This document shows, one piece after another, positions 14,619 through 35,211 of a stretch of 35,367 nt of DNA. The number at the start of each line of letters is the position of its first letter. The first letter of the stretch is position 1. The DNA is taken from NCBI GenBank assembly GCA_937920275.1, contig CALGVD010000092.1, positions 77,225 to 112,591 of the forward strand, given 5' to 3'. The notes under the pieces are model-generated. The model had not been told where the DNA came from. It ran no database searches and saw only the letters and a list, made by a program, of their open reading frames with translations. Origin of the DNA: an uncultured Pseudomonadota bacterium (GTDB lineage Bacteria > Pseudomonadota > Gammaproteobacteria > Steroidobacterales > Steroidobacteraceae). A program made the translations under genes and the position numbers.

Positions 14619-15797
14619 ATGGACGCCGCTGCCGACGACACCCGTACCCACTTGCTCGGGCTTGAAAGGCCCGCGCTCGAGGCGTTCGTGGCGTCGCTCG
14701 GCAGCAAGCCGTTCCGTGCGCGCCAGCTCATGCAGTGGATGTACAAACGCGTCGAGGGCGACTTCGCTTCGATGACCGATCTCGCGCGTGATTTCCGAGC
14801 GCAGCTCACCGAGCACGCCGTGATCAGCGCGCCCGAGGTGGTCTCGCGTCACGATTCAGCCGACGGTACGCGCAAGTGGTTGCTGCGCGCCGACGGCACG
14901 CAGGCCTTCGAGATGGTCTACATCCCCGAGACCGACCGCGGCACCCTCTGCGTGTCCTCGCAGGTCGGCTGCGCGCTCGACTGCGCGTTCTGCTCGACGG
15001 CGCAGCAGGGTTTCAACCGCAACCTCACCACCGCCGAGATCGTCGGTCAGGTCTGGCTCGCCAACCGCGAACTCGGCCTCGAGCCCGGCGGGCTGCGGCC
15101 GGTGACCAATGTCGTGCTGATGGGCATGGGCGAACCGCTCGCCAACTTCCGTAATGTCGTGCCCGCAGTGCGCATCATGCTCGATGATCTCGGCTTCGAC
15201 ATCTCGCGCCGCCGCGTCACGCTCTCGACCTCCGGCCTCGTGCCGCAGATCTACAAGCTCGCGGAGGAGACCAACTGCGCGCTTGCGGTGTCCCTGCATG
15301 CGCCGGATGACGCGCTGCGCGACGAGCTCGTGCCGATCAACCGCAAGCACCCGATCGCCGAGCTGCTTGAGGCCTGCTGGCACTACATCGATGAACAGAA
15401 CGGACGCAGCATCACCTTCGAGTATGTGATGCTCGATGGCGTCAACGACCAGCGTTCGCACGCGCGTGAACTCGCGCGGCTGCTGCGCGGCAAGCCCGCG
15501 AAGCTCAACCTCATCCCCTTCAACCCGTTCCCGGGCACGCATTTCCGCCGCTCGCCGATGCCGGTGATCACCGCGTTCCGCGACGAGCTCATCCGGCGCG
15601 GTGTGCTCGCCACGATCCGCCGCACCCGCGGTGACGACATCGACGCGGCCTGCGGTCAGCTCGCCGGCCGCGTGAACGATCGCGTGCGTGTGCGCCTCGG
15701 CGACAAGCTCACCCATGCCCTGCGGCCGCGCGCCGTGGGGGATGTCGCCATGGGGGATGTCGCCATGGGGGATGTCGCCATGGGGGATGTCGCATGA
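14619..15797 (+). CDS. rlmN: Dual-specificity rRNA/tRNA methyltransferase RlmN
   Basis: 392 residues. RlmN is a radical-SAM enzyme that methylates C2 of A2503 in 23S rRNA and A37 in some tRNAs. The cluster motif C118-x3-C122-x2-C125 (CALDCAFCST) and the methyl-carrying Cys345 in IDAACGQLAG are present, as are GMGEPLANF and the SLHAPDD loop. The family domain ends near residue 370; the last 20 residues are a four-times GDVAM repeat encoded by a DNA tandem repeat. Its TGA overlaps the rodZ ATG (ATGA), and the last repeat unit forms the rodZ ribosome site. Confidence 0.96.
   Translation: MDAAADDTRTHLLGLERPALEAFVASLGSKPFRARQLMQWMYKRVEGDFASMTDLARDFRAQLTEHAVISAPEVVSRHDSADGTRKWLLRADGTQAFEMVYIPETDRGTLCVSSQVGCALDCAFCSTAQQGFNRNLTTAEIVGQVWLANRELGLEPGGLRPVTNVVLMGMGEPLANFRNVVPAVRIMLDDLGFDISRRRVTLSTSGLVPQIYKLAEETNCALAVSLHAPDDALRDELVPINRKHPIAELLEACWHYIDEQNGRSITFEYVMLDGVNDQRSHARELARLLRGKPAKLNLIPFNPFPGTHFRRSPMPVITAFRDELIRRGVLATIRRTRGDDIDAACGQLAGRVNDRVRVRLGDKLTHALRPRAVGDVAMGDVAMGDVAMGDVA
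15735..15793 (+). repeat. 15-bp tandem repeat x4 at the rlmN/rodZ junction
   Basis: Units of ATGGGGGATGTCGCC run from 15735 (first unit begins GTG) to 15793; the fourth is one C shorter and runs straight into the rodZ ATG at 15794. Each unit holds a G-run plus ATG at ribosome-site-like spacing. In the rlmN frame it encodes GDVAM repeats. The missing C is what moves the final ATG out of the rlmN frame and into that of rodZ. Confidence 0.95.
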
Positions 15798-27986: not shown

Positions 27987-28015
27987 GGGGACTCAGGCCG
28001 GGTGGGTGGTGGGGG

Positions 28016-28039
28016 CAGGGGGTTTGAATTGCCTATCCG
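28016..28039 (+). repeat. Boundary repeat, copy 1 of 5
   Basis: CAGGGGG followed by TTTGAATTGCCTATCCG, 30 bp after the stop of the AbiEi-like gene. One mismatch to the core shared with copies 2 and 3. The flanks to either side are not shared beyond the G-rich lead-in. Confidence 0.8.
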
Positions 28040-28113
28040 TGATCGTGGAACCGGTCGAGCGGTTGGTCGGCGGTCGGTGCGGTCCTGACAGGAGGCTCGC
28101 TCGATCTGCAGAA

Positions 28114-28200
28114 CCGGCCAAAAGACCGGCCAAAATTTAGCCTACAAAGGATGACAAGTTACTGTTTATAGAGTTAATATTCCGGCCATGGAACCGGCCA
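28114..28200 (+). promoter_or_regulatory. fic promoter flanked by two pairs of CCGGCCA repeats
   Basis: CCGGCCA occurs at 28114, 28126, 28182 and 28194: two pairs, each with a 12-bp period. Between them lies the only AT-rich stretch of the area, with ATGACA (28151-28156), 18 bp, TAATAT (28175-28180) as a promoter candidate. The repeat pairs bracket it, as operators would. The likely ligand is the winged-helix tail of the Fic protein itself; this is inference. Confidence 0.5.
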
Positions 28201-28225
28201 AGACACTCATCCGGGGGATCGAGCC

Positions 28226-29401
28226 GTGACCCCTGCCGCCGCCGAGCCGTACATGCCCACCGAGGGCACGGCCGTGCTCGAAAATCTGGCCTTCGATCTG
28301 GCGCGCGAGGCCAGCGAGCTTTCCGCTCAGCTGCATCCGGCAGTTCGACTGTCGGTCGCCGAACTCGTCCGGTCGATGAACTGCTACTACTCGAACCTGA
28401 TCGAGGGGCACAACACCCACCCGCGGGACATCGACCGCGCCCTTACTGCCGACTATTCCACCGACCTGCATCGCCGCGATCTGCAGCTCGAGGCCCGCGC
28501 GCACATCGAAGTTCAGCAGATGATCGATGAGCGAGTCGGCGAACTGCCGCGTCCGCCCGCCGCGCGTGCATTCATCGAATGGACGCATCGGGAGTTCTGC
28601 AAGCGCTTGCCCGAGAGTCTGCTCGTCGTCGTGAACCCGGACACCGGGGAGCGCGTTCCTGTTATCCCAGGGCAGTTGCGCTCGCGTACGGTCGCCGTCG
28701 GCCGGCACGTGGCGCCGGCGCCGGAGGATCTACCGGCGTTCATGCTCAGATTCGAGGAAGCCTTCGATGCGGCTCGGCTGACGAAGTCGCGGCAGGTGAT
28801 CGCCGTCGCGGCGGCTCACCATCGGTTTCTGTGGATCCATCCCTTCCTCGATGGCAATGGGCGTGTCGCGAGGTTGATGTCGCACGCGTTGCTGCTCGAT
28901 ATCGGGATCGGCTCCGCGCTCTGGTCCGTTTCGCGCGGACTCGCGCGCAACTCCGGTGACTACAAACGCCTGCTGATGGCGGCCGATGAGCCGCGCCGGA
29001 GCGATCTCGACGGGCGAGGGGCGCTGTCCCATGAGGCGCTGATCGACTTCTGCCGGTTCTTTCTCGAGACCTGTCTCGATCAGGTCCGCTACATGCGCGA
29101 GCTGCTCGACGCTTCCGAGCTTCAGCGTCGCATGGAGCTGTACGTGCGTGAGGAGGAAAGCGCAGAGCGGCTCCCGAAGCGTAGCTTTGCCGTTCTGCGT
29201 GAAGCGCTTCGCGCTGGCGAGTTGGAACGCGGTCGCATTCCACAGTTGATCGACACGAGCGAACGCACGGCGCGACGCGTGGTGTCTGCGCTGATCGAAA
29301 AGCGGTTACTGGTTTCAGCCTCACACAAAGCGCCATTGCGACTGGGTTTCCCCATCGATGTCGTCGAGCGCTGGTTTCCGAGGCTTTATCCCGTGGTGTG
29401 A
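28226..29401 (+). CDS. Fic family adenylyltransferase with built-in inhibitor and wHTH tail
   Basis: 391 residues. Fic enzymes transfer AMP (or similar groups) from nucleotides to protein hydroxyls. The catalytic motif HPFLDGNGRVAR is intact at residues 205-216. An inhibitory (S/T)xxxE(G/N) motif, SNLIEG, lies at 56-61 before the Fic core, making this a class II Fic that should be self-inhibited. Residues 280-391 form a helical linker and a winged-helix DNA-binding domain (RIPQLIDTSERTARRVVSALIEKRLL). The GTG start follows a GGGGGA ribosome site. It lies between boundary repeats 1 and 2 as a single-gene block. The target is unknown. Confidence 0.88.
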   Translation: MTPAAAEPYMPTEGTAVLENLAFDLAREASELSAQLHPAVRLSVAELVRSMNCYYSNLIEGHNTHPRDIDRALTADYSTDLHRRDLQLEARAHIEVQQMIDERVGELPRPPAARAFIEWTHREFCKRLPESLLVVVNPDTGERVPVIPGQLRSRTVAVGRHVAPAPEDLPAFMLRFEEAFDAARLTKSRQVIAVAAAHHRFLWIHPFLDGNGRVARLMSHALLLDIGIGSALWSVSRGLARNSGDYKRLLMAADEPRRSDLDGRGALSHEALIDFCRFFLETCLDQVRYMRELLDASELQRRMELYVREEESAERLPKRSFAVLREALRAGELERGRIPQLIDTSERTARRVVSALIEKRLLVSASHKAPLRLGFPIDVVERWFPRLYPVV

Positions 29402-29435
29402 TGGCCAGGGCGGCCGACTGCGCCTTCGGTCGGGA

Positions 29436-29460
29436 CAGGGGGTTTTGAATTTCCTATCCG
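29436..29460 (+). repeat. Boundary repeat, copy 2 of 5
   Basis: CAGGGGG then TTTTGAATTTCCTATCCG, 34 bp after the fic stop. Same orientation as the other copies. The minus-strand membrane gene ends 19 bp beyond it. Confidence 0.85.
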
Positions 29461-29479
29461 TTGCGCGACCACGCACGGC

Positions 29480-30039
29480 TCAAGATTTTTTTGACTGCCT
29501 GAGGCTTGCCGGTATCGTCTCAAGCGTCGCCGCGAGCACCTCACCGTCGCTGGGAAAGCGGCACTCCTCCTCGGTGATGTCGGAGTAGTCGTGCGCGATG
29601 AGGGGCAGCGGTTTTCCATGACAGCGGATCTCCAGCGCCATACCGCTTTTCGCCCCGCGGATGACATCGAACTCGCTGTTCGGGAAAGTCCCGGCACGCA
29701 GCGCGCCGCGCGCCGTCGCCGGTCATGCAGCCACAGCGGAATCCCCAGCATCCCCAACGCGGCGGACGCGATCATGGTGAGCTGTACGCTGGCTGGCCGC
29801 GTGAGTGCGTCCGGCGCCGAGGCATCCGGCAACACCAACGAGAGGAGATAGAACAGCAAGAGGATGACGACCCCGGCCAGCCAGCCGAGTGCGGCGCAGC
29901 CGGCCAGCATGAAGAATACCCCTACTGCATCCCCCGGCTTGCGGATCTGGAACAGCGGCTTGTAGAACCGCTTGCTGCGCTCGCGCTCGAGCGCCTGCCG
30001 CTGCGCCGGCTCCATCGGGCTGTATTTGCGACTTGGCAT
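29480..30039 (-). pseudogene. Two-span membrane protein gene, frameshifted
   Basis: The 5' part (from ATG 30039) encodes a basic N-terminus MPSRKYSPMEPAQRQALERE and two membrane spans (VGVFFMLAGCAALGWLAGVVILLLF region; LTMIASAALGMLGIPLWL). Near 29700-29735, in an Arg-rich GC stretch, the reading frame is lost; the sensible continuation is in another frame (TFPNSEFDVIRGAKSGM ... ITEEECRFPSDGEVL ... SLRQSKKS) and stops at 29480. The original frame runs on into the boundary repeat with no protein-like sequence. One base lost or gained would explain it. The product is an unrecognised inner-membrane protein of about 185 residues, with the soluble C-terminal part broken. A sequencing error cannot be excluded. 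Confidence 0.6.
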
Positions 30040-30123
30040 CCGCGGTTCTCTAACGTCGGGTAAAAAGCATGGTACAGCGAAGCTTCAAGATTATCGCGAC
30101 TGCGAGCTAAGGGTGGTTGACGC

Positions 30124-30141
30124 CTGAGCGTTTGCGCTCAG
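30124..30141. repeat. Short inverted repeat upstream of transposase fragment
   Basis: CTGAGCG TTTG CGCTCAG: a 7-bp perfect stem with a 4-nt loop in the 140-bp non-coding stretch before the first IS91-type fragment. It could be a mobile-element hairpin or chance. Confidence 0.35.
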
Positions 30142-30180
30142 CGCTCTTCGAGCAGGCGCAGTTTCGATGTCCGTCGTACG

Positions 30181-30342
30181 CAGCGGCTGAAGCGCGAGTT
30201 CGGTATCAACATCGAGACCTGCACCGGTTGCGGCGGGAAGCTCAGGGTGATCGCGAGGATTCTGGGGCACCTGGAACGCACGGCGCCGGATCAGCACCCA
30301 TCCGGGCTGCTGCGTCTGTCGGGAAACGGCTGTCGGCGATAG
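30181..30342 (+). pseudogene. IS91-type transposase, C-terminal fragment (copy 1)
   Basis: 53 residues remain: QRLKREFGINIETCTGCGGK-LRVIARILGHLE..., ending at TAG 30342. The ETC-x2-CGG-x-LRVIA block is the C-terminal zinc-binding signature of IS91-family (Y2 rolling-circle) transposases. In full-length family members about nine residues (of the type IEDPAVIE) normally stand between VIA and the RILxHL helix; here they are missing. The catalytic part is gone. A boundary repeat follows 49 bp after the stop. Confidence 0.75.
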
Positions 30343-30390
30343 GCTTCGGCTCACCATCAAGCCATTCAAGCGCAGCGGATTGGTCTCGAT

Positions 30391-30413
30391 GGGTGGTTTG
30401 AATTTCCTATCCG
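30391..30413 (+). repeat. Boundary repeat, copy 3 of 5
   Basis: GGGTGG then TTTGAATTTCCTATCCG, downstream of transposase fragment 1 and directly before the alkA fragment. This position suggests the repeat is the 3' terminus of the IS91-type element. Confidence 0.85.
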
Positions 30414-30432
30414 CCCACGCGCATCGTAATCT

Positions 30433-30678
30433 GTGGTGTCCGAGCACGGCGGTATCGAGCACCTCGACGACAAGGAGATCATCACGCGCCTCAGCAGTGT
30501 GCGCGGCGTCGGTGATTGGACTGTGGAGATATATCTGATGTTCACGCTGGGTCGCCCCAATTATTGGTCGGTGGACGCCCCCCGGGGTACGCAAGGGCTG
30601 GTCGGTGGCCCTATCGCAGCCATGCGGCGTGGTGTCGCTATCGCGCGATCGACAACCTTGTGCCGGAGGTATGCGGCA
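30433..30678 (+). pseudogene. DNA-3-methyladenine glycosylase (AlkA-type), 3' fragment
   Basis: The translated piece IEHLDDKEIITRLSSVRGVGDWTVEIYL...LGRPNYWSVD matches the helix-hairpin-helix glycosylase core (LSSVRGVGDWT is the HhH; LGRP..VD normally ends in the catalytic Asp). After VDAPRG the frame breaks; the family C-terminus resumes in another frame as WPYRSHAAWCRYRAIDNL. The N-terminal half is absent: the fragment starts about 20 bp after boundary repeat 3. It is clearly non-functional as an independent glycosylase. Its 3' end runs into the ribosome site of the next gene. Confidence 0.65.
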
Positions 30679-31386
30679 ATGATGCGGTACCCCCTTCCCC
30701 TCACGCTGGCGCTGTTGGGGGCGTGCGCCACACCCACCGCCCAAAACCCCACCCGCGGCCCTTTGGCGCTGGTGGGAACATGGGACACCGCGCGCCAATA
30801 TGAGGCCGCAGCCCCCGCCATCAAACGGCCCGCCACCGCAGGCGACAGCACGCCGTGGCTGGATCGCCAGCACGCGCGCTTTGTGCAGATCAGCGCGCCC
30901 GGCTTGGCCAAGGACGGCGATATCGCCCTGTTCTTTGCATGGCGCACCGGCGGCCCCACAGGCCCGATCAGCCGCGAGCGTATTTGGGTGTTTGAGCGGG
31001 ATGCGTCGGGCGAGATCGCGCGCATGAACTTCCATACGTTGAAAGCGCCCGCGCCCAGCGTCGCCTTCACCGATCCGCGCAAGGCCTTTGCCGCCCTCAC
31101 CCGCGACGATGTGATCTCCTATCCAGACCTGTGCAAGCTGCCTTTTGAAGCCACGGCTTCGGGCTGGCGCGCGGCGATCCCGGTGGACTGCGCCATAACC
31201 GCTCGCTCAGGCCGACGGATGACATTGAGCGCGCAGATCATCTTTGATGGTGAAAGCCTGAGTTACGAAGAGGCTGGCATCTTGGACAGCGGCGCGTTTG
31301 CGTTCAAAGTGCCGTCCGCTGAGCCGTATCGGTTTGAGCGCACGCCGCAGTCCGTGGCGGCCCCTGACTCACGGCTTTACCGTTAA
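30679..31386 (+). CDS. Putative CpcT/CpeT-like lipoprotein
   Basis: 235 residues. MMRYPLPLTLALLGAC is a lipoprotein signal with lipobox LLGAC (Cys16). The mature part has the general pattern of the CpcT/CpeT fold: GTWDTARQYEAA near the start, then SRERIWVFERDASGEIARMNFHTLK, a conserved central Cys stretch (YPDLCKLPFE), VDCAI, and a C-terminal DSGAFAF...EPYRFER. Phycobilin lyases of that family exist in cyanobacteria, but homologues of unknown role occur in heterotrophs, which is the likely case here. The start is chosen from GGAGGT at 30665-30670. An open frame extends upstream through the alkA fragment but is not part of this gene. Base composition is somewhat less GC-rich than in the core genes. 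Family call is tentative. Confidence 0.6.
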   Translation: MMRYPLPLTLALLGACATPTAQNPTRGPLALVGTWDTARQYEAAAPAIKRPATAGDSTPWLDRQHARFVQISAPGLAKDGDIALFFAWRTGGPTGPISRERIWVFERDASGEIARMNFHTLKAPAPSVAFTDPRKAFAALTRDDVISYPDLCKLPFEATASGWRAAIPVDCAITARSGRRMTLSAQIIFDGESLSYEEAGILDSGAFAFKVPSAEPYRFERTPQSVAAPDSRLYR

Positions 31387-31427
31387 ATGTTCATAACGTA
31401 CGGTTGTGACAAAGCTTAGGGTTCACC

Positions 31428-31676
31428 ATGTCAAAACGTCGTTACAGCGGTGTCGAAGAAACTCGTCAGCAACTGCCCTCGCTGCTGGAAACTGCACATG
31501 CGGGACAAGCCCTGATCATCACCAAGCGCGGCAAGCCCTATGCGGCGCTGGTCCCCATCGAAGCACTACCGGACGCTCGGCCGCGCCCATCGATCGTGGC
31601 GTTGCGCGGTTCAGGCAGGGGACTGTGGGGCAGGGACGCGGCGGCCTGGGTCAGCCGGATGCGGAACGAATGGTGA
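31428..31676 (+). CDS. Phd/YefM-type antitoxin
   Basis: 82 residues. MSKRRYSGVEETRQQLPSLL and the following LIITKRGKPYAALVPIEAL are the N-terminal DNA-binding half of prevent-host-death antitoxins. The C-terminal tail (from about 55) would wrap the toxin. AGGG lies 7 bases before the ATG. Its stop overlaps the GTG of the PIN gene by 4 bp (GTGA), the usual toxin-antitoxin layout, with the toxin broken by an internal deletion. Confidence 0.85.
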   Translation: MSKRRYSGVEETRQQLPSLLETAHAGQALIITKRGKPYAALVPIEALPDARPRPSIVALRGSGRGLWGRDAAAWVSRMRNEW

Positions 31677-31988
31677 AGGCCGCTTCGCTGCTGGCTGGGC
31701 TGCCCGAGCGTCCAGTCCTGGTGGTCGACACGGCGCCGATCATTTACTGGCTAGAAGGTCATGCGAGGTTCGCCGAGCGGTTTGCCGAAGTTTTTTACGC
31801 AGCGGAATCTGGTGCCGCTCGATGCGGAGACGGCCGTCGAGGCTGCGCGCATCCGTTCAGCCTATCGACTGCGCCTGCCGGACGCGATTCAGGTCGCGAC
31901 GGCGATTCGCGTCGGCGCGGCTGCGCTGATCACGCACGATAAAGCGCTGGCGCAGGTGACCGGGTTACGGGTGTTGGGACCCGCGTAG
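31673..31988 (+). pseudogene. PIN-domain (VapC-like) toxin with internal deletion
   Basis: The 5' frame starts at GTG 31673 and gives VLVVDTAPIIYWLEGHARFAERFAEVF, the first third of a PIN ribonuclease with the first metal-binding Asp (residue 19). From about 31797 only another frame makes sense: RNLVPLDAETAVEAARIRSA, then LPDAIQVATAI and LITHDKAL, the last third with the other acidic residues, ending at TAG 31988. About 40-50 central residues, including the conserved Glu of the middle motif, are missing and the join is out of frame. The toxin should be inactive while the antitoxin remains. Confidence 0.8.
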
Positions 31989-32203
31989 GCGAAGGCTCGA
32001 CCCGGAGTGTCGATCTGACCTTCGACCGCCATGCTGAAGAGGAAATCCGATTCGGAAATCGCTGCGGTCGACGCCGCCTCGGCGCGGGGCGCTTCATTGC
32101 CGGATCGTGATGCGGGCCCACTATTGGGGTTACAGGCAGCGAGGATCAATGCGATCAGAAAGCCGCCTGTCAAGAACTCTTGACTATCAAGAATGCTTGA
32201 CAT
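31889..32203 (-). CDS. Possible truncated lipoprotein (uncertain)
   Basis: A minus-strand frame from ATG 32203 reads GGFLIALILAAC (lipobox LAAC, Cys24) followed by an Ser/Asn/Ala-rich linker typical of lipoproteins, then FLFSMAVEGQIDTPGR. After about residue 72 it runs antisense through the end of the PIN gene and is not protein-like. The first 14 residues lack a charged n-region and overlap the palindromic operator, so the true start may have been lost. Probably a lipoprotein gene remnant; low confidence. Confidence 0.25.
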   Translation of the reverse strand: MSSILDSQEFLTGGFLIALILAACNPNSGPASRSGNEAPRAEAASTAAISESDFLFSMAVEGQIDTPGRAFAYAGPNTRNPVTCASALSCVISAAAPTRIAVAT

Positions 32204-32208
32204 ACCTT
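32169..32208 (+). promoter_or_regulatory. Tandem palindromic operator and promoter of the XRE gene
   Basis: GTCAAGAACTCTTGAC (32169-32184; 7-bp arms) and TCAAGAATGCTTGA (32187-32200; 5-bp arms) share the half-site TCAAG and have centres 17 bp apart. TTGACT (32180-32185) and TACCTT (32203-32208) with a 17-bp spacer form a promoter that the palindromes overlap. Autorepression by the XRE protein is the natural inference. Confidence 0.55.
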
Positions 32209-32217
32209 CATCGCAAG

Positions 32218-32430
32218 ATGAAGAACAGGTTGCGCCATTATCGAGAAGACCGCGGATGGTCGCAGGGCGGGTTGGCCCAGCGGCTCGGCGTATCGCGCCA
32301 GACGATCAATGCGGTCGAAACCGATAAATATGACCCGAGCCTCCCGCTGGCACTGCGTATCTCCAAACTGTTCGGGGTGGCGGTCGACATGATCTTTCTC
32401 GACGATTGGCAACCGGAGGACGAGGCATGA
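32218..32430 (+). CDS. Small XRE-family transcriptional regulator
   Basis: 70 residues. The whole protein is one helix-turn-helix domain: RLRHYREDRGWSQGGLAQRL, then GVSRQTINAVETDKYDPSL with the recognition helix, and LALRISKLFGVAVDMIF. It is the compact YgzD-like type often found upstream of a membrane protein. The ATG at 32218 fits the family N-terminus MKNRLRHYR; there is no ribosome site and the predicted mRNA start is about 3 bases upstream. Its stop overlaps the next gene (ATGA). Palindromes in its promoter suggest autoregulation. Confidence 0.88.
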   Translation: MKNRLRHYREDRGWSQGGLAQRLGVSRQTINAVETDKYDPSLPLALRISKLFGVAVDMIFLDDWQPEDEA

Positions 32431-33095
32431 ACGACGTGAAGACCACGCAGTCAGGTGTCTGGAAAGGTTGGGCTACGGCGGCAATCTGTGGGGCCGGCGG
32501 CTATCTCTTTTTCAAGTGGTTCGTCTTGAGATGGCTCGCCGACAACGGCGTGCTGTGTGCCTATGAGCCGATGATTAAGGCGGCTTTCGCTCGGGACGGA
32601 TGGTGGATGATCGCTGGCTGGGTGACGGTGGCCTTTTTCGGGTTCATGGGATTGATTCTGACCATCGCCAGCCTGCGGGGTCGGTGGACCCAGAGGGTGA
32701 TGCGTATGCAGCCGGGGGAACCCCTGGATAAACTACGCCAGATGGTGCGGATCAGCGGGATCGGAGGGGCCGCCTATGGCCTGCTGGTCACCTTGTTCCT
32801 GATGCCCGGTATCGACCCGCTGGTGGGTGTCGTGGTCGGGGTTGCGGCGTTTGGACTGATCACGATCCTATTTTTTTGGGGGCTTCGGATCAGCGACGAG
32901 TTGCAGCGGGCGGCGCAGAATGAAGCCCTTGTCTGGTCGTTCATAGTCATCGAAGCGGTGCTGGTGCTTTGGGCGCTGCTCAATCATTTCGGATTTGTCG
33001 GGCCGATGAAGGCGCTGCCGGTGGTTTTGCTGATCACATGGGTTTATCTGGCGGCCTTTATGGTCGTCGCCTCTCGGCGTGGGCTCGACCAGTAG
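32427..33095 (+). CDS. Six-span membrane protein paired with XRE regulator
   Basis: 222 residues, family not recognised. Hydrophobic segments at about 14-34, 59-82, 109-127, 132-152, 168-188 and 196-215 predict six spans with short loops. The second loop is basic (RGRWTQRVMRMQ). It starts at the ATG overlapping the XRE stop, with GGAGGA 7 bases upstream, so it is translated from the XRE transcript. The arrangement (tiny XRE repressor plus membrane protein) is common in accessory regions, but no transport or enzyme motif is seen. Confidence 0.75.
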   Translation: MNDVKTTQSGVWKGWATAAICGAGGYLFFKWFVLRWLADNGVLCAYEPMIKAAFARDGWWMIAGWVTVAFFGFMGLILTIASLRGRWTQRVMRMQPGEPLDKLRQMVRISGIGGAAYGLLVTLFLMPGIDPLVGVVVGVAAFGLITILFFWGLRISDELQRAAQNEALVWSFIVIEAVLVLWALLNHFGFVGPMKALPVVLLITWVYLAAFMVVASRRGLDQ

Positions 33096-33216
33096 TTATA
33101 TGCATGGCGCTGACAAAGAGGCTAGAAAGCGAGGTTCGACACAACTGGCCGAAGGTACTTGCCGTCGAATATCGATAGGCGGCTGGTAGTCGCGCGGGGC
33201 CATCCGACCGCGCTAG

Positions 33217-33381
33217 CTCGCGCCTCGCCATGCCGCCATGACTTGGGCACAGCGGCTGAAGCGCGTGTTCGGTATCAACATCGAGACCTGCACCGGCTGC
33301 GGCGGCAAGCTCCGGGTGATCGCGAGGATGCTGACGCACCTTGAAAAGGCCAGCTGCCGCCCGGCACAGGGTGAAGGGATT
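33217..33381 (+). pseudogene. IS91-type transposase, C-terminal fragment (copy 2)
   Basis: LAPRHAAMTWAQRLKRVFG, then the INIETCTGCGGKLRVIARML zinc block and LTHLEKASC. It is the same C-terminal segment as copy 1, nearly identical over 33250-33343, and has the same missing stretch between VIA and the last helix. The frame has no stop and runs through boundary repeat 4 into the VOC gene. The stretch 33096-33216 before it holds no gene I can recognise. Confidence 0.75.
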
Positions 33382-33406
33382 CAGGTGGGGTTGAATTTCT
33401 TACCCG
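33382..33406 (+). repeat. Boundary repeat, copy 4 of 5
   Basis: CAGGTGGGG then TTGAATTTCTTACCCG, about 40 bp after the transposase homology ends. Two T/C transitions from the core. Downstream begins the VOC gene block. Confidence 0.75.
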
Positions 33407-33471
33407 CAATCAACCGCGTAGTATCCTTAGCACCCCCGTGCCATCGCACGGTTCGACCGGCGAGGGCCCCG

Positions 33472-34380
33472 ATGAATCGCACACCGTCTTTGACCCGTCG
33501 CTCGCTTGCCCTGCTGGCCGCGACGCTCTCCCTCGTCGGCGCGAGCGGCGCGGCGCCGGCGGCCCCGGCGATGCCGGCGCTCTCCGACCCGCCGTCCGGC
33601 CTGCACATCCCAGGTAAGTTCATCTGGTTCGATCTCGCCACCGCCGACCCGGCCGCGGCGCAGCGCTTCTACGGCAGCGTGTTCGGCTGGAGCTTCGAGC
33701 CGGTGGCCGGCACGGGCGGTCGCTATGCCGTGATCCGCAACGAAGGACGCCCGATCGGCGGTGTGTTCCGCCCGGCGCTGCCGCGGGGCGAGCAGGCTGG
33801 CACGCGTTGGCTGTCGTTCGCGTCGGTCGAGAAACTCGATCGCGCGGTCGGCGCACTGACCGACCTCGGCGCTACCGTGCTGGTGAAGCCGACCCTGGTG
33901 CCGGGTCGCGGCAGCCACGCGATCCTGCGTGATGCGCAGGGCGCGGTGGTCGGTCTGCTGCAGTCCGCGAGCGGCGATCGTCCGGACGAAGCGGTCGCGC
34001 CCGGCGATTTCTTCTGGGTCGACCTCTTCGCGCGCGATCCGGCGAAAGCCGGCGAGGCCTACCGCCAGCTCGGCTTCGAAGTCGTGCCCGACGACGTCTC
34101 GGGCTCGCGCGAACGGCTGCTGCTGGTGTCGGCGGGTTATGCGCGCGCGGGCATCATGCCGCTGCCCGCCGGCGGGCGTGAAGCCGGTTGGCTGCCCTAC
34201 GTGCAGGTCGACGACGTGGCCGCCGCGCTCGAGCGCGCGAAGGCCGCAGGCGGCAAGGTGCTGCGCGAACCGGATGCGGCCGTGCTCGGCGGCGGCGTCG
34301 CCGTGATCGGCGACCCGCAGGGTGGCGTACTCGGGCTCATTCATTGGCCCGCCCCGGCTACCGGCGGGGACCGCCCATGA
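33472..34380 (+). CDS. Exported protein with two glyoxalase-fold (VOC) domains
   Basis: 302 residues. The N-terminus TRRSLALLAATLSLVGASGAA is a signal peptide with an RR pair, possibly Tat-type. Two VOC domains follow: about 48-160 (GKFIWFDLATADPAAAQRFY, WLSFASVEKLDRAVGAL, VVGLLQ) and about 175-295 (GDFFWVDLFARDPAKAGEAY, WLPYVQVDDVAAALERAKAAG, GVLGLIHWP). VOC proteins bind metals or small hydrophobic ligands; the function is not readable. The ATG is preceded by GAGGG; the open frame upstream comes from the transposase fragment. It overlaps the lipoprotein gene by 4 bp. Confidence 0.85.
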   Translation: MNRTPSLTRRSLALLAATLSLVGASGAAPAAPAMPALSDPPSGLHIPGKFIWFDLATADPAAAQRFYGSVFGWSFEPVAGTGGRYAVIRNEGRPIGGVFRPALPRGEQAGTRWLSFASVEKLDRAVGALTDLGATVLVKPTLVPGRGSHAILRDAQGAVVGLLQSASGDRPDEAVAPGDFFWVDLFARDPAKAGEAYRQLGFEVVPDDVSGSRERLLLVSAGYARAGIMPLPAGGREAGWLPYVQVDDVAAALERAKAAGGKVLREPDAAVLGGGVAVIGDPQGGVLGLIHWPAPATGGDRP

Positions 34381-34679
34381 AGAGATCCACGGCACTCACA
34401 GCGCGCTTGGCGCTGGCGACGATCGTCGCGGCGGGCGTGAGCTCCTGCGCAAACATGGATGGCGTGTCCGTCAGTGGCAGCGTCGGCGTCGGCATGTACT
34501 ACGGCAGCGGTTACTACGATCCCTGGTACTACGGTCCCGGCTACGGCCCGCCGGTCGTGGTCGTGCCGCCGAGGCCCGAGCGTCCGGCCAGGCCCGTGCG
34601 CCCCGACGCCCGGCCGATGCCGGTGCCGTCGCGGCCGACACAACCGATGCCGCGCGGTGGCGGCGGCCGCCGCTGGTAG
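34377..34679 (+). CDS. Small Gly/Tyr/Pro-rich lipoprotein
   Basis: 100 residues. A signal sequence LALATIVAAG and lipobox VSSC give lipidated Cys24. The mature part is low-complexity: a Tyr/Gly run (YYGSGYYDPWYYGPGYG), a Val/Pro stretch, then Pro/Arg repeats (RPERPARPVRP) and a final GGGGRRW. Such tails suggest an envelope-exposed, possibly cell-wall-binding, small lipoprotein. The ATG overlaps the VOC stop (ATGA), so the two are co-translated. No family recognised. Confidence 0.75.
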   Translation: MKRSTALTARLALATIVAAGVSSCANMDGVSVSGSVGVGMYYGSGYYDPWYYGPGYGPPVVVVPPRPERPARPVRPDARPMPVPSRPTQPMPRGGGGRRW

Positions 34680-34720
34680 GTCACGCGGCGTTCCGTTCCC
34701 CGCGACGCTCTCGGAGGGGT

Positions 34721-34745
34721 CAGCCGGGGGTGACTTCCCTATCCG
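34721..34745 (+). repeat. Boundary repeat, copy 5 of 5
   Basis: CAGCCGGGGG then TGACTTCCCTATCCG, 41 bp after the lipoprotein stop. The most diverged copy, but the CCTATCCG end and G-rich lead-in are kept, and the position (3' edge of a gene block) is the same. Confidence 0.65.
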
Positions 34746-34839: not shown

Positions 34840-35211
34840 ATGATCAGTTATGTCACTCTCGGGACGCGCGACCTACAGCGAGCTGCTGATTTTTATGCCA
34901 GTTTGCTGGGTGATCTAGGCGCAAAACGGCTGATCAACATGGAGCGGATCGTTTTCATCGGTAAAAGCAACAAAGAGCCGATGCTGGCGGTTTGTGTGCC
35001 TTTTGACAAAGAAGACCCGCATCCGGGTAACGGCGTGATGCTGGCGTTCGCGCCAGGCTCGAAAGAGTTGGTTGATCAGCTGTATCAAAAAGCCATCGCG
35101 CTGGGTGCCACTTGTGATGGTGCGCCGGGCCAGCGTATTCCGGGTGTTTTTTACGGCGCTTACGTCCGCGATTTTGACGGCAACAAAGTCTGTTTCAACC
35201 ACTTCGGTTAA
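34840..35211 (+). CDS. Single-domain VOC (glyoxalase/dioxygenase-fold) protein
   Basis: 123 residues, one VOC domain: MISYVTLGTRDLQRAADFYA (first strand and helix), EPMLAVCVPFDKEDPHPGNG, VMLAFAPGSKELVDQLYQKA, GVFYGAYVRDFDGNKVCFNHF with the C-terminal motif of lactoylglutathione-lyase-like proteins. The usual metal-binding His/Glu pattern is not clear at the N-terminus, so a small-molecule binding or unspecified lyase role is possible. GGAG lies 6 bases before the ATG. The codons are visibly more AT-rich than in neighbouring genes, consistent with transfer. Confidence 0.8.
   Translation: MISYVTLGTRDLQRAADFYASLLGDLGAKRLINMERIVFIGKSNKEPMLAVCVPFDKEDPHPGNGVMLAFAPGSKELVDQLYQKAIALGATCDGAPGQRIPGVFYGAYVRDFDGNKVCFNHFG

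Follow-up and report, generated by a model that had tools for sequence, protein, structure and literature searches.

ISCR elements are held responsible for the spread of many resistance genes. The DNA described here, a stretch of 35,367 nucleotides from an uncultured bacterium of the order Steroidobacterales (contig CALGVD010000092.1, positions 77,225 to 112,591; the window hereafter), carries in series, at gene-block junctions downstream of guaA, five short sites which, judged by sequence, are what is left of the right (3') end, oriIS, of ISCR-type elements. Transposition and the exact boundaries of ISCR elements are described as undemonstrated or debated in the accessible parts of two sources (PMC6218425, 2018; PMC9376610, 2022), the earlier of which states that there was no experimental evidence for transposition of any ISCR as of 2018. 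The closest named relative is ISCR2 (ISVsa3). The transposase of the intact parent elements found in relatives of this genome is ~60% identical to that of ISCR2 and ~57% identical to that of ISCR1, and both known elements have the same end motif, with three mismatches each to the consensus pattern. Unlike ISCR2 and ISCR1, the window has ends in series, mostly stubs, and its transposase is reduced to two fragments. The oriIS of ISCR27, GCGGTTGAACTTCCTATACC, located 236 bp after the transposase stop, is alike in sequence, whereas ISCR27 appears in the accessible part of its report as one element by a resistance gene and not as an array (PMC8894482). For the related IS801, the accessible part of the source describes right-end fragments of 229, 360 and 679 nt that move with the right end intact and the left truncated (PMC3189936); the stubs here (33–45 bp) are shorter. 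GIsul2, according to the accessible part of its description, integrates at guaA GAGTGGGA by means of its integrase and carries a CR2-sul2 unit (PMC9376610). The window resembles it in having an ISCR unit at the 3' end of guaA and differs from it in being an array in which no integrase gene was found and in its cargo.

Each component by itself (ISCR ends, one-ended transposition, islands at guaA) is already known. Their combination, in which very short ISCR ends stand in series where gene blocks meet, with intact environmental parents and a link to guaA, did not turn up in the open-access literature searched; none of the titles and abstract beginnings listed there concerns serial solo ISCR ends. 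The environmental clade, with dozens of copies, forms a natural data set on ISCR ends, offering right edges that are exact and left edges that are ragged, 33–45-bp stubs, a duplicated unit without a full transposase and testable intact parents. The placement at guaA, seen in 10 of the 24 end-bearing genomes (contig breaks may hide more, and not every transposase piece was fetched), ties these relatives to the site of ISCR2 within GIsul2.

Five end sequences in the window

At up to three mismatches the pattern TTTGAATTTCCTATCCG has four matches in the window, all on the plus strand, where 0.03 are expected; these are the cores of END1 to END4 (Table 1), and the core of END5 is four mismatches away. 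A 30-bp profile was built, with the window excluded, from copies at 42 places in other genomes of the order, 33 of them unique, and scanned along both strands. Its five best sites are exactly these five, all plus (scores of 43.9, 36.1, 30.8, 15.2 and 11.6), and the sixth scores −1.2. The five sites exist and are jointly beyond chance. The initial annotation had placed five same-direction copies here and none in the 26 kb core, and this independent ranking agrees on both counts. Its statement that each copy lies 30–50 bp past the preceding gene is correct for copies 1, 2, 4 and 5, while copy 3 lies ~88 bp after a transposase fragment.

The search of the whole genome that the same annotation proposed (2.7 Mb, 137 contigs) finds the window's cluster as the sole one; there are four single three-mismatch matches on four other contigs, which are judged to be chance-like, and the reversed-pattern control gave zero. 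In ten loci of relatives, chosen since earlier scans had shown no good end there, none of the 294,220 positions scores 9 or more. Across the order, the pattern occurs at 39 places in 19 of the 396 sampled genomes (control zero). A longer exact pattern is found in 16 stretches of the genome collection, a few of them apparently outside this order, and has no exact match in viral contigs.

Relation to intact ISCR-type elements

Intact relatives, taken as parent elements, are present in two genomes of the order, G379 and G031, where they encode 504-aa transposases with Y2_Tnp and Zn_Tnp_IS91 domains. The best NCBIfam match of these proteins is ISCR clade Ia (589 and 586 bits, respectively), and because these scores are below the model cut-off of 925 the proteins lie outside that named clade; the IS91 model gives 99.5 bits with a cut-off of 125. 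The motif ends the intact elements 229 bp (G379) and 239 bp (G031) after the transposase gene, and it stands 251 bp after the gene in a copy in G041 that is cut by the contig start. The plasmid-borne ISCR2/ISVsa3, ISCR1 and a third ISCR have it 218, 215 and 227 bp after theirs; in a fourth plasmid ISCR stretch (L190) the motif was not found. Since intact relatives and plasmid ISCRs carry the motif after the transposase gene, the initial annotation was right in taking the sequence for the 3' end of a rolling-circle element, with ISCR as the nearest class, and the intact element that it had suggested looking for elsewhere is found in G379 and G031. The oriIS copies of the window itself are without a transposase gene. 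In a protein search, transposase pieces were detected in 20 of the 24 end-bearing genomes vs none of four end-free relatives; the end-bearing G001, G288, G296 and G377 have no piece at E 1e-6, and the window's own genome has only four fragments, two of them in the window.

Homologous copies in G031, G288, G320 and G042 have a right edge fixed at CCG with unrelated flanks beyond it, and their homology to the left, in ungapped comparison, stops variably (~220 and 250 bp in G031, 245 bp in G288, 85–145 bp in G042). Exact right and ragged left edges are as expected of one-ended transposition. In a search for terIS, the left regions of 12 copies align poorly, and in two G370 copies the common sequence begins ~120 bp upstream of the gene. 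G320 has two copies, 100% identical and 13 kb apart, of a 1,204-bp unit whose transposase is reduced to a C-terminal piece; both units terminate at the motif, and one has GAAC at its left flank. The base after CCG is C in 45 of the 54 ends analyzed. Strict IS91 behavior places GAAC or CAAG at the target next to oriIS, and none of the 54 ends has either tetranucleotide, or its complement, right after CCG. IS801, by contrast, uses GAAC-type tetranucleotides, as the accessible part of its report describes (PMC3189936).

The guaA site and the block junctions

In both G005 and G003, the gene immediately after guaA is a core gene of 180 aa, which we take to be DUF1415-like. The window's genome has two copies of this core gene, both at contig ends (C33 and C90). 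The window ends at a contig end, and because its last 55 bases match the first 55 of C90, the latter most likely continues it; C90 has no further end copy scoring above 0. The inserted region is then ~12.3 kb, and its first 8 kb contain all five ends. A guaA 3' end has an end or an ISCR transposase piece on its strand, at a distance of up to ~5 kb, in G000 (the window's genome), G001, G016, G031, G039, G041, G273, G285 and G377; in G203, two transposase pieces enclose a 3' piece of guaA. Full-length transposase genes start ~330 bp past guaA in G031 and G285, the contig of the latter stopping before the end motif.

Breaks are demonstrable at four of the five boundaries in the window. The initial annotation took the copies as marks of block boundaries, and comparison with homologs bears this out for END1, END2, END4 and END5; the measured left breaks leave 45, 33 and 35 bp of end at END1, END2 and END5, respectively. 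The AbiEi-like homologs in G386, G388 and G281 all have similar DNA after the stop; in the window the match covers 11 nt, counted from the stop codon, and gives way to the 45-bp END1, which is followed by other DNA. In G386 the AbiEi-like gene is followed by an overlapping open reading frame (ORF) for a 258-aa partner, with no Pfam or PADLOC match. The fic homolog in G379 shares ~26 bp past the stop, after which the window has the 33-bp END2 and foreign DNA; the flanks of the other fic homologs vary more. An apparent inverted repeat to the left of END2 was set aside, being partly inside the native fic flank. The tail of END3 is 82% identical to an end copy in G042 over 113 bp. The block of the VOC gene and a small ORF has 95% identical DNA in G018 with different neighbors (~1.5 kb of contig to the left, >7 kb to the right), and there an end core with a different lead-in stands at the same base before VOC as END4; the G018 block may conceivably be linked to guaA beyond its contig start. 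At END5, the window and C90 have in common a 31-bp stretch that directly adjoins the 35-bp end in the window and leads to a guaA-end-like 20-mer on C90. The lead-ins of the five ends differ, which argues against their being recent copies of a single parent and makes several parents likely.

Extra pieces of the guaA 3' end (~70–205 bp) are found past guaA itself in G007 (two), G021 and G001, and on different contigs from it in G003 and G016. An end directly before such remnants, as a single crossover would predict, was not seen in those inspected in G001, G007 and G021. Among the loci with an extra piece (L077, L078, L090, L082 and L084) only L090 shows a good ISCR end, and one of the pieces in G007 comes after a fragment of the start of the next core gene. 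The window's genome has two phage-integrase-family matches, one ~26 kb from the array and the other on another contig; no integron integrase was found near the array, and attC sites were not searched for. As the array stands at the guaA 3' end, a known site of integrase islands, part of its build-up may be island traffic. Two further observations concern this site. Immediately ahead of the next core gene on C90 (L152), the guaA-end-like 20-mer, a carbonic anhydrase and a DUF1254 protein are bracketed by two DoxX-like genes. In three genomes (L196, L032 and L200), a partly inverted repeat of the GACGGTAAA type lies between guaA and the ISCR transposase, and is perhaps an integrase arm site.

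Origin of the array and further features

The explanation that we favor, and regard as fairly probable, is that serial one-ended events of ISCR-type elements left oriIS stubs at the block junctions of a guaA island. Several different ISCR-like elements would have inserted or moved DNA over time between guaA and the next core gene. Replication would start at oriIS and run leftward, and an early stop, or a run past the normal left end, would leave the right edge exact and the left one ragged and could carry neighboring DNA along. Repeated events with later loss of transposase DNA may then have left short oriIS stubs between unrelated genes. One-ended transposition itself and the order of events are what we infer here, and whole blocks, beyond the stubs, would likewise have been moved by the ends.

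Several observations weigh against this explanation. END4 and END5 are individually weak, as the best of 60 whole-window shuffles scores 18.4, above both, and their scores are reached in 1 and 4 of 300 array shuffles (plus strand), respectively, and in 2 of 100 whole-window shuffles each. No empty site was found for any single end of the window. The consensus fold of 16 long tails has zero pairs, and a hairpin within the end was dropped for that reason. Neighboring ends within 15 kb are co-oriented in 16 pairs and opposed in 2, which speaks for the explanation, but with less weight in that these pairs are non-independent and include the window's four, one opposed pair resting on a weak site. 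The window's genome is a draft assembly, from which a multi-copy intact element could be missing. Among 180 genomes, fic at ≥75% identity is found at 16 places in 15, and 13 of the 16 have no end within a flank of up to 1.5 kb. The VOC block is shared with an end on its left, which leftward mobilization from that end does not explain, and the blocks at guaA in G007 and G021 are without ends.

The reading of fic and its end as one cassette fails this 16-place test. The initial annotation had proposed one block per event, as a unit of gene plus end, and this is weakened, since the lead-ins differ, END1 cuts a pair of genes that overlap in a relative, fic is mostly without ends and the VOC block shares its left end. 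All three fic places with an end have it upstream, and only the window has one downstream as well; in G041 and G379, a transposase piece or end lies farther from fic on the same contig, and a weak end-like site (13.6) stands upstream of fic at one of the 14 places where fic is more distant. The upstream end stands 120–190 bp before the fic start, on the same strand, in three genomes (window 28023, L090 16445, L117 2875), and might there function as an outward-directed promoter or indicate a preferred target. In ISCR1, according to a partly accessible source, the oriIS region drives downstream genes; by analogy, ends upstream of genes might be kept as promoters.

Alternatively, the blocks may have been moved by site-specific or homologous recombination at the 3' end of guaA, and the ends would be later 5'-truncated insertions that moved nothing. 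We consider this unlikely, although the recurring guaA 3' pieces, the guaA-end-like 20-mer of C90, the precedent of GIsul2 as described in the accessible part of its report (PMC9376610), and the many fic places without a nearby end agree with it. Such insertions should have native DNA to the right of the stub, and it is absent there at END1 and END2; neither phage-integrase-family match is within the array, and the position of END4 next to VOC is the same to the base in two genomes whose neighbors there differ. Serial one-ended events may also be given a more specific form, in which the stubs of this order serve as start and preferred landing site, build directional arrays without an integrase and share guaA with ISCR2 as founding site; this form appears improbable. 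In an integron-like system, with the end as origin, terminator and preferred target, replication would run from one end to the next one upstream, and the block excised with its end would be inserted beside another end. Directional arrays of two to five ends in several genomes, an extra end tail close by at 5 of the 54 ends (36 stretches), such as the 35-bp end doubled head to tail in G376, and a head-to-tail repeat of a unit of 947 bp plus intact ISCR in G379 are in line with it. However, no second occurrence was found of any block with an end on either side, a gene pair is cut by END1, neither fic nor VOC moves with a right-hand end and the window itself has no end-in-end tail, which makes such a system quite improbable. 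It is hardly credible that the sites are a regulatory or structural motif (terminator, promoter or DNA-uptake-type repeat) unrelated to transposons. Ends 1, 2 and 5 do closely trail a stop codon, and ends 1, 4 and 5 are ~65–187 bp ahead of a gene start, but the motif is rare in the order, occurs in clusters, is missing from the core and forms the end of intact ISCR elements.

The features of the window are listed in Table 1. The names guaA, DUF1415, AbiEi, alkA and lipoprotein are presumed or come from the initial annotation and are unconfirmed by family search.

Table 1. Positions of the ends and of the genes around them in the window
Feature	Position	Strand	Remarks
guaA	25157..26755	+	3' end is left edge of inserted region
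guaA-linked loci	26755 (window)		other loci: L032, L039, L083, L090, L121, L196, L200, L201, L209
AbiEi-like gene, 337 aa	26973..27986	+	named by resemblance; no Pfam, NCBIfam or PADLOC match
END1, 45-bp ISCR-type oriIS fragment	27995..28039	+	core 28023-28039
Fic/DOC protein (fic), 391 aa	28226..29401	+	
END2, 33-bp oriIS fragment	29428..29460	+	core 29444-29460
First ISCR/IS91 transposase C-terminal fragment	30133..30309	+	
END3, ~112-bp oriIS tail	30302..30413	+	most complete of the five; core 30397-30413
XRE-type HTH gene	32107..32430	+	ORF as listed; true start probably later
229-aa ORF after HTH gene	32406..33095	+	"membrane" is the label of the initial annotation; no Pfam match
Second ISCR/IS91 transposase C-terminal fragment	33223..33354	+	92% identical to the first over 96 bp
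END4 core	33390..33406	+	counterpart in G018 at the same place, 2 bases different
VOC/glyoxalase-superfamily protein	33472..34380	+	96% identical in G018
Small ORF, 100 aa	34377..34679	+	"lipoprotein" is the name of the initial annotation; no family match
END5, ~35-bp oriIS fragment	34711..34745	+	weak match; core 34729-34745
Second VOC-type protein	34840..35211	+	95 bp past END5

Two minor observations were made within the window. Repeated CCGGCCA boxes in the fic promoter region (28100–28230) are conserved across homologs and are probably its operator. The ORF at 14619–15797 has a short in-frame repeat (GDVAM) at its C-terminus (15750–15797), just ahead of the next ORF.

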